From Paenibacillus bovis (GTDB lineage Bacteria > Bacillota > Bacilli > Bacillales > Bacillaceae_C): a DNA stretch of 49,768 nt. The first letter of the stretch is position 1. The number at the start of each line of letters is the position of its first letter. Positions 14,840-49,768 of the stretch are shown piece by piece. The notes under the pieces are model-generated. The model was not told the origin of the DNA and searched no databases. It was given only the letters and a program-made list of their open reading frames with translations. Location: positions 1-49,768 of the forward strand of contig VEFU01000033.1 in the NCBI GenBank assembly GCA_007679095.1. Direction: 5' to 3'. The translations under genes were made by a program, and so were the position numbers.

Positions 14840-15332
14840 GTTCTTTATGGGGAATGTGGAGGAGTTTGCGTGACTGCCTGAACCTCTTTCTAGCTTAGGT
14901 GGGCATGATGAAATGGCTTGCGTGACTACCTTCTCCTTTTTCCAGCTTAGTTGGTCACGTTGAATGCTCTAACGTGACCAACTAATCCTTTTTCCAGCCT
15001 AGGTGGGCACGATGAACGCTCTTGCGTGACCACCTAATCCTTTTTCTTGCTTAGCTGGGTACGATGAACGATCCTGCGTGACCACCTTCTCCTTTTTCAT
15101 GCCTAGGTGGGAACGATAAACACTCTTACGTGACCGCCTACTCTCTTTTCGAGCTGAGGTGGGAACGTTGAACGCTACATCGTGACCGCCTGCAACTTTT
15201 ACAAGCCTAAGTGGGCATGATGAACGATCCTGCGTGACCGCCCTATCCTTTTTCCAGCTCAGGTGGACACGATGAACTCCCCAACGCGACCGCCTTATCC
15301 TTTTTCCAGCCTAGGTGGTCACGCGGAGCAGG
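14840..15332. repeat. 52-bp tandem hairpin array A
   Basis: Eight units of exactly 52 bp start at 14892, 14944, 14996, 15048, 15100, 15152, 15204 and 15256. A partial unit follows at 15308-15332, and a degraded one at 14840-14891 is in register in its right half. A typical unit is AGCCT + arm AGGTGGGCACG + loop ATGAACGCTCTTG + arm CGTGACCACCT + linker AATCCTTTTTCC. The arms form an 11-13-bp inverted repeat. In unit 2 the arms read AGTTGGTCACGTT and AACGTGACCAACT: both sides changed together and pairing is perfect. A 52-bp period cannot stay in one reading frame. I do not recognise it as a named element. Confidence 0.9.
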
Positions 15333-47606: not shown

Positions 47607-47656
47607 AAAATATACATACTTAAATAAGCATAAAAATGCTTCCCAAAATCTACTTT

Positions 47657-47724
47657 CCTCATAGTCCAATTATTTACGGCAATTGGGTAGAAACTTATGG
47701 GCCATATTCCCATGATATACGAGG
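47657..47724 (-). ncRNA. Guanine (purine) riboswitch aptamer of the pur operon
   Basis: The minus strand carries the purine aptamer core in order: P1 CCTC, the GTATAT segment, P2 ATGGGAATATGGCCCAT, the junction AGTTTCTACC, P3 CAATTGCCGTAAATAATTG and the closing GGACTATGAGG. The C in GACTATG, where adenine riboswitches have U, marks guanine specificity; a deoxyguanosine type is less likely. The P3 loop GCCGTAAA and P2 loop ATATGGC-type bases give the usual loop-loop contact. It controls the terminator downstream. B. subtilis has the same arrangement before purE. Confidence 0.93.
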
Positions 47725-47734
47725 TAACAACTTC

Positions 47735-47763
47735 ATTTTAACAAAAGATACGAGAGAATACAA
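47735..47763 (-). promoter_or_regulatory. Promoter of the purine operon
   Basis: Minus strand: -35 TTGTAT (47758-47763), 17-base spacer, -10 TAAAAT (47735-47740). It lies directly upstream of the riboswitch and directly downstream of the PurR operator. Confidence 0.7.
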
Positions 47764-48537: not shown

Positions 48538-48783
48538 GAATGAGCCTCCAATAAAATTGTCTATTTATTATTATAACCATAATGACTCGCCATAAAGCAA
48601 AGCATCCATATTCCTTTACCCTTTATGAGGGGGAGGTAATCATTGGGATGTGAGTGTAGGGTGTTGGTTGGAACCTATGGAAAATTGGATACATTTGTTT
48701 CCAACCAAAACAGCTGACAAAGCGATTCGGGTACTTGGAGAGTGCGGCTCGTTTCTTGGGGGAAGTGGGAGAATGGGAGAATG

Positions 48784-48900
48784 AATTGCTGTTGGATGAT
48801 GTCTTGTCCCTTGGGGGAAGTGGGGGAATGGATTGCTGTTGGATGATGTCTTGTCCCTTGGGGGAAGTGGGGGAATGGATTGCTGTTGGATGGATGATGA
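48784..48900 (+). repeat. 47-bp tandem repeat
   Basis: Two nearly perfect copies of a 47-bp unit (ATTGCTGTTGGATGATGTC, then TTGTCCCTTGGGGGAAGTGG, then GGGAATGG) start at 48785 and 48832. A partial third starts at 48879, and a weaker partial copy precedes them near 48751. The high identity points to recent duplication. Confidence 0.85.
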
Positions 48901-48930: not shown

Positions 48931-49664
48931 TGATTACCTTTATGTGAGATTTTTAGTTTTTGGGGAATGAGATGTGGATTCTGATTACCTTTCGGAGAGA
49001 TTTTTTTCTTTTTGGTAATCAGATGATCAATCTGATTACCTTTCTGAGGGATTTCTCTCTTTTGGGGAATCAGATGATGGAGCTGATTACCTTTTGAAGG
49101 GATATTTGGGTTTTATAGAATCAGATGTGGGATTTGATTATCCTCTAGAGAGATTTTTCTATTTTGGGGAAGCAGATGATCGGTTTGATTCCCTACGGAT
49201 GAGATTTTTCTTCTTTTGGGAATCATACAGTGTCTTTGATTCCCTTCCTGGGGGTTATTCTCTCCTTATGGGAATCATACAGTGTCTTTGATTCCCTTCC
49301 TGGGGCTTATTCTCTCCTTATGGGAATCATACTGTGACTTTGATTCCCTTCTTGAAGGGTTTACTCTCTTTTCGGGAATCATAAGACCGCTTAGATTTGC
49401 TTCTGATGGATATTTCTTTTTTTGAGGGAACCATGCTTTATTTGTTTTTGTGTTTTAGCTTGATAAGGACTGTAATTTAACATTTTTCTTAATCATGATA
49501 TCTATTTGAAGTGAATAGTTACCTAATTTTCATATTCCTTTTCATTTGGGATTTAATCAGTCTCAATAGTGACCTCTCTTGTCTTTTTTATTATTTTTGG
49601 GCACTATTCCCTCTGAATAGATACCTTAATTCAATTTTCCCATTAATTCGGGCTTTATTATAAT
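48931..49664. repeat. 51-52-bp tandem hairpin array B
   Basis: Units begin with TGATTACC, TGATTCCC or related strings at 48931, 48982, 49033, 49084, 49135, 49186, 49237, 49289, 49341 and 49393, steps of 51 or 52 bp. After an offset they resume at 49461, 49512, 49563 and 49614, again 51 bp apart. Each junction forms an inverted repeat, for example GGTAATCAGA/TCTGATTACC near 49014-49040 and GGGAATCA/TGATTCCC in the later units. The linker is T-rich (GAGATTTTTCTTCTTTT). The stem changed on both sides together (TAATCA/TGATTA to GAATCA/TGATTC). Non-coding: the step from 51 to 52 breaks any frame. Confidence 0.88.
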
Positions 49665-49696
49665 ACTGCTTTTCTTTATTCCTCTTAAAAAAACAC

Positions 49697-49726
49697 AAAA
49701 AAAGCCACCTTCCTCAGAAGATGACT
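49697..49726 (-). terminator. Terminator of the rRNA operon
   Basis: Minus strand: AGTCATCTTC pairs with GAAGGTGGCT (with G-U pairs) around a 4-base loop, followed by seven Ts. It lies 7 bases past the 3' end of the 5S rRNA. Confidence 0.88.
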
Positions 49727-49733
49727 TTCATTT

Positions 49734-49768
49734 GCCTGGCAACGTCCTACTCTCACAAGGGCGAACCC
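49734..49768 (-). rRNA. rrf: 5S ribosomal RNA, 3' end (partial)
   Basis: Only the last 35 bases are in the window. On the minus strand they read CCCTTGTGAGAGTAGGACG and end TTGCCAGGC, the conserved 3' part of Bacillaceae 5S rRNA, where GAGAGTAGGACG is diagnostic. The remaining 80 or so bases and presumably 23S and 16S rRNA lie to the right. The mature 3' end is placed at 49734 by the closing helix sequence. Confidence 0.9.

Follow-up and report, generated by a model that had tools for sequence, protein, structure and literature searches.

A 52-bp tandem array between two genes

The window (the whole stretch of DNA analysed, 49,768 nucleotides) belongs to a Lederbergia-type genome of 4.57 Mb in 522 contigs, hereafter G000. 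A tandem array (array A) occupies the gap that separates a Peptidase_S11 gene from an exonuclease/phosphatase-family gene (both minus-strand), and two further satellite arrays (B and C) follow towards the end of the window, where a tandem repeat of 47 bp with 2.7 copies at 95% match (48766-48892) lies just ahead of array B. The features are:

14849..15323, minus strand: array A, nine 27-bp cores, reading GG[T]CACG-N13-CGTG[C]CC on the minus strand
14849, 14901, 14953, 15005, 15057, 15109, 15161, 15213 and 15265, minus strand: starts of the array A cores
After each core of array A: a linker of 25 bp with an A-tract, the last partial unit ending at 15323
14947..14985, no strand: perfect 15-bp inverted repeat with a 9-nt loop, the only unit of this kind
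48963..49400, minus strand: array B, nine cores GGKAATC-N13-GATTMCC at a spacing of 51-52, a second satellite family of G000
49497..49625, minus strand: array C, three degenerate cores GGKCACTATT-N7-AATAGTGMCC at a spacing of 51, beside B and adjoining a 5S rRNA end

The units of array A are real. TRF places the array at 14866-15323 with a period of 52, 8.8 copies, 75% matches, 0% indels and a score of 403; an ungapped repeat finder gives a constant spacing of 52 between all steps; and a scan for the 27-bp core finds nine units at a 52-bp step, their starts running from 14849 to 15265. The preliminary description had listed eight unit starts, which share this register, and the inverted-repeat core that it saw is present in the units. 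Its perfectly paired second unit also stands as an inverted repeat (arms 14947-14961 and 14971-14985, terminator-like on the plus strand in a simple scan), although the pairing extends over 15 bp rather than 13. The array sits between two genes of the ORF list and 52 is no multiple of three, marking it as noncoding; mechanical ORFs are present within some other arrays of the 52-bp class. An Rfam scan of the window found nothing at array A, as a reading without a known RNA family required, and only a purine riboswitch (47642-47742) reached the gathering score.

The same description knew of no named element of this form, but the class, the 52-nt repeats, is already in print, with 1886 arrays of 51-53 nt counted over 176 Bacillus genomes and present in about 30% of species (PMC8161180). 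Array A is a satellite of this class. Its period of 52 and 8.8 copies lie within the defining 51-53 nt and at least four repeats, it is noncoding, and its genome contains several families of the same length (A, B and C). Species-specific sequence, which is not what we find here, is a reported trait of the class and not its definition.

Satellite families within the genome

A blastn search of G000 with array A as query returns 75 matches at E <= 1, counting the array itself, spread over 15 contigs, far beyond chance. Scanning 17 stretches picked for blastn matches, together with the window, gave 293 core hits in G000, from which 279 units in 20 arrays were kept, those dropped being cut units or hits outside the array ranges. 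Spacing between kept neighbours was 52 (n = 233), 53 (14), 51 (5) or 47 (1), with six larger. The near-exact unit length despite sequence divergence, already remarked upon in the window, extends across the genome: 252 adjacent unit pairs diverge by 27.4%, through 3588 substitutions and 19 length changes. Aligned by the core, family A reads GGTCACG-N13-CGTGCCC, then a 25-bp linker holding an A-tract, and higher-order periods of 104 and 156 bp are present in arrays. In one array (L028, 5398-5920) the strand sense of the units alternates, and there is a higher-order period of 104 bp.

Families B and C are two further 51-52-bp satellite families of G000, and share one common unit layout with A; the correlation between the profiles of the three families is partly circular, because units were chosen by their core. 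Arrays B and C stand side by side, directly adjoining a 5S rRNA gene end, in four places (the window at 48931-49768, L116/L120, L117 and L121), located with a string from the 5S end, only L116/L120 reaching Rfam's 5S score. They are placed as if part of the rRNA operon ends. Other periods also occur within G000, with 42-bp and about 21-bp arrays at L039 10096-10788 and L021 10393-11108.

Relative to genes, and compared with ordinary gaps of 100 bp or more, arrays are depleted between divergent pairs (1/42 against 65/295; p = 0.0014) and enriched between convergent pairs (16/42 against 47/295; p = 0.0013), with ORF cut-offs of 80 aa for the G000 arrays and 100 aa for both the arrays of a second genome, G212, and the baseline, whose stretches contain the array gaps too.

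Dispersed imperfect palindromes with a conserved mismatch, as these arrays are, might be REP-like elements mobilised by a RAYT (Y1) transposase, and of the genus's 16 genomes 14, among them G000, have PF01797 matches. However, the one open Y1 gene seen in G000 (contig C497, a 223-aa frame) is flanked, by eye, by a different palindrome, GTGCCTGGCAC, and has no 52-bp array beside it, while G002 and G010 have no PF01797 match and yet G002 has 52-class arrays. The Y1 gene's other palindrome and the G002 arrays rule out a RAYT partner, and we regard mobilisation of this kind as extremely improbable. The gene itself (L072 1457-2070) is a single-copy RAYT-like gene between palindromes GTGCCTGGCAC; similar genes occur in G005 (L073, also with GTGCCTGGCAC) and G009 (L074, with GGGGACAGTCCCC).

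The dyad does not evolve as an RNA hairpin

Covariation was assessed over 16 pairs in 264 distinct units from the 20 arrays of G000, with shuffles both over all units and within arrays. Pairing in the dyad was 0.677, compared with 0.684 in all-unit shuffles (299/300 reaching the observed value) and 0.675 in within-array shuffles (59/300); double changes numbered 74, compared with 103 +/- 21 and 83 +/- 20 respectively. As neither pairing nor double changes rise clearly above the shuffles, the family A dyad shows no sign of compensation, and the compensatory stem changes described from the window are not a general feature. At the 25 offsets covered, pairing of opposite columns stays near the independence expectation, the departures reaching 5 points upwards and 13 points downwards. 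Pairs 14-17, the outer ones, show a slight excess of pairing over within-array shuffles (matched in 4/200) but fall short of the mean of the all-unit shuffles. One-sided cells are more numerous than in any of the 300 shuffles, for G.U (526, about 472 in shuffles) as well as for A.C (347, about 281), an excess that represents one side changing without its partner. Nor do the A-to-G changes noted earlier preserve wobble pairing in any general sense, for a wobble on one strand is an A.C mismatch on the other, and no strand is consistently favoured. The proposed selection for a hairpin fails on the lack of covariation and on a T.C stem mismatch at positions 3/25, kept in 254/279 units. The pair table of G212 likewise contains no covariation of dyad pairs.

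Array A folds stably on both strands (z of -5.09 and -4.53 against shuffles), as expected of a DNA dyad array. This folding could also be cited in favour of the arrays working as RNA, either as transcribed small RNAs or as 3'-end hairpins, as could their preference for the 3' sides of genes, and for B. coagulans the authors describe its 52-nt repeats as transcribed (PMC8161180, PMC8625621). Yet the two strands fold about equally well, neither the 264 units nor G212 covary, the stem mismatch is retained without a consistent one-strand wobble preference, and array polarity opposes both neighbouring genes at L026, L033 and L293. An RNA hairpin maintained by compensation is ruled out by both types of shuffle and the G212 pair table, and a role as RNA more broadly seems quite unlikely.

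A core shared across genera and families

The array is not the local accident that the preliminary description had allowed for, as homologous arrays exist in other Lederbergia species, in Neobacillus rhizophilus and in three other families. GGTCACG-N13-CGTGCCC matches 9/397 genomes of the order, in 5/135 genera, whereas a reversed control pattern matches two genomes. When genome contigs were scanned for exact matches to a longer pattern, eight stretches emerged: three in L. panacisoli, one each in L. citrisecunda, Bacillus sp. IITD106 and Neobacillus rhizophilus, and two in MAGs of distant phyla, which are taken for chance. The longer pattern was unmatched in viral contigs, which speaks against a viral origin. 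Series of 52-bp units (rarely 51 or 53) surround the core in G172, G212 and G141, representing the three other families, and also in N. rhizophilus, G007, G008, G012 and G015; the core match of G213 is isolated, with no array. The core of the 52-bp units is therefore not species-specific, being common to several genera and families.

Arrays of 51-52 bp with different letters are present in samples of G001, G002, G003, G006, G007 and G015, several with a similar layout by eye, such as GGTAAAT-N13-ATTGACC in G001 (L239). A common layout is not claimed for all arrays, because a dyad scan of 17 consensi was better than shuffled (p <= 0.05) in only 7/17. Within the genus, G004 and G009 retain the gene pair that flanks array A and have no array, the gap being too diverged for an insertion scar to show, and in G013 the exonuclease gene of that pair is followed downstream by two copies of a 53-bp repeat. 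CRISPR-like repeats of about 64-68 bp period (a repeat of about 30 nt plus spacers) were seen at L252 5237-6264 (G010) and L107 12258-17443 (G013).

Tyrosine-recombinase core sites resemble 10-bp arms around a 7-bp centre. By eye, such arm and centre lengths are found in families A, B and C, in family I of G006 (27 bp) and in G015 (26 bp), so that the satellites might be arrays of recombinase core sites; the likeness is one of layout alone, leaving the 52-bp step and the polarity described below unexplained, and we give this explanation very little credence.

Unequal half-sites and orientation along replication

The two halves of the dyad are not equivalent. The right half-site is GGGCACG in 128/279 units of G000 and in 129/183 of G212 (units from 17 of 20 stretches fetched), compared with 1/279 and 0/183 for the left; the left half deviates at position 3 in G000 and, in G212, chiefly at position 4. 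This asymmetry belongs to the two columns, rather than to unit-by-unit avoidance of identical halves, because such units occur at least as often as in shuffles (7/279 against a mean of 5.1 in G000; 20/183 against 14.8 in G212).

The sense of an array was defined as the strand reading GGT..CCC, and the direction of replication was read from GC skew, and not from a located oriC or dif. In G000, array strand matches the sign of the flanking skew in 19/19 oriented arrays on 15 contigs (the alternating array L028 excluded), a count that, like those below, is non-independent because the arrays are related copies; on nine of those 15 contigs, skew over 21-60 kb keeps its sign. A search of G212 with one array gave 23 matches, corresponding to 22 arrays, of which 21 agree with local skew, the exception having a skew of -0.010. 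On its 4.70-Mb contig, 14 arrays at 0.25-2.32 Mb are on the plus strand, and seven at 2.69-4.15 Mb plus one at 0.03 Mb are on the minus strand, giving one switch of strand along each arm. Across genomes, 20 sources of core matches comprise 14 that agree with skew (some single units, and one the G212 array already counted among the 22), three that disagree (L201 and L210, both G172 arrays, and the lone G213 match), and three that are split, one being a second G212 array. Family H of G003 agrees with skew at 5/6 places, and family I of G006, a near-perfect palindrome, has no polarity, with agreement at 4 places, disagreement at 6 and a mixed sense at 1.

GC skew in part reflects gene direction, according to the accessible text of PMC13323073. 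At three places, however, both neighbours oppose an array that follows the skew: at L026 (MreB/Mbl and thioesterase genes), at L033 (YugN and AzlD genes) and at one array of L293. Literature searches on orientation and the leading strand found nothing on 52-nt repeats, although we do not claim that such polarity is absent from print.

The chief rival to a functional account of this polarity is that the arrays are a functionless by-product, with growth tied to a replication strand, through slippage or insertion via single-stranded DNA, setting their orientation, and a ruler within that process setting the 52 bp. Such growth would accommodate a 20-nt family of G014 that lacks the 27-bp core and nevertheless has one sense in 17/21 arrays, the 104- and 156-bp periods, which point to block duplication, and the variation in content among species, with G004 and G009 having the gene pair and not the array. 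It accounts less readily for identical core letters and identical asymmetry recurring across families. Hairpin stability is not the cause of the polarity, because its sign is opposite in the two genomes: the leading-strand sequence forms the weaker hairpin in 203/279 units of G000 and the stronger in 133/183 of G212. Other strand-linked processes could still be its source, and overall we think a by-product origin rather unlikely. The G014 family (L093) is itself a satellite at about 30 places over 1.69-5.47 Mb of contig C1, with none found in the first 1.69 Mb, and its strand mostly switches near 3.35 Mb (24/30 places).

Oriented protein-binding arrays as a proposed explanation

Constancy of length, layout, asymmetry, lack of covariation and polarity fit an oriented protein complex better than RNA. 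Each unit is a 27-bp asymmetric dyad of two facing 7-bp half-sites, 20 bp centre to centre, with the next unit 52 bp on; as these spacings are about two and about five helical turns, the half-sites should share one face of the helix. A putative sequence-specific DNA-binding protein, dimeric or of two subunits, may occupy the arrays cooperatively, its unequal fit to the two half-sites giving the bound array a direction, which the cell could read against the movement of the fork, with one-way roadblocks or oriented landmarks of chromosome organisation as examples of such a use. That the arrays are phased, oriented sites for such a putative dimeric protein, read relative to replication, is the reading we tentatively adopt from the sequence patterns, judging its chances to be a little under even. 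More doubtful, and rather unlikely, is its extension, in which 52-nt satellites would serve the chromosome as direction signs, phased asymmetric dyads running along replication on each arm, on which the putative protein would form one-way filaments (a fork barrier or segregation landmark), perhaps replacing RTP/ter where RTP is lacking, and guarding rRNA operon ends.

The class has so far been called enigmatic, with a constant length, no conserved sequence and no known function. A shared core, asymmetry and polarity make it a testable problem of protein-DNA recognition, with the 27-bp core available as bait and the strand of arrays on the chromosome arms as a quantitative trait. A functional polarity would mean that many Bacillaceae have a directional system spanning the chromosome, and a polarity that is a by-product would reveal replication-coupled growth of bacterial satellites.

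Comparison with known systems

Several known elements share parts of this description. REP/BIME elements with RAYT transposases are dispersed intergenic imperfect palindromes, as are these arrays, whereas array A has exact 52-bp tandem units. KOPS/SRS and Chi are short oriented motifs co-directed with replication, and eukaryotic rDNA fork barriers are arrays of sites downstream of rRNA genes; KOPS/SRS and Chi are single short motifs, unlike 52-bp dyad arrays, and the likeness is by description.

RTP/ter of B. subtilis appears to be the nearest working analogue: its sites, in the accessible parts of PMC13220808, are asymmetric dyads of about 30 bp with unequal half-sites, replication-polar and bound by dimers, as a dimer is proposed for the 52-bp arrays. 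Compared by description, nine single ter sites lie in the terminus region (PMC13220808), whereas long arrays here lie along both arms. Array A is not a member of this system, because a PF02334 (RTP) search of G000 gave no match. The occurrence of RTP within the genus is uneven: three genomes have an intact copy (over cut-off in G001, G005 and G010), one has a broken copy (G013) and most lack it. RTP over cut-off was also not found in G172, G212, G141, G404 or G405, and is present in G213, whose lone core match has no array. One 52-class array occurs in 560 kb sampled from the RTP-bearing G001, G005 and G010, against eight in 620 kb from G000, G002, G003, G006, G007, G011, G014 and G015, a comparison that excludes G013 (RTP broken, 80 kb, none) and the L039 call (a 42-bp family) and ignores kinship, and which we treat as a lead only that these arrays are rarer where RTP is present.

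The closest relatives by structure remain the 52-nt repeats of Subirana and Messeguer (2021, PMC8161180), which, in the accessible text, have the same constant 51-53 nt, variable sequence and noncoding position, the same many arrays and several families per genome, and the same short sequences with their reverse inside the repeat, and for which nucleoid proteins or small RNAs are the roles discussed. That text states that the sequences are species-specific without conservation, whereas here a core is common to genera and families, and its accessible parts contain no statement that we found on half-site asymmetry or replication polarity. Relative to that text, therefore, the shared core, the unequal half-sites and the orientation along replication are new features of the class.
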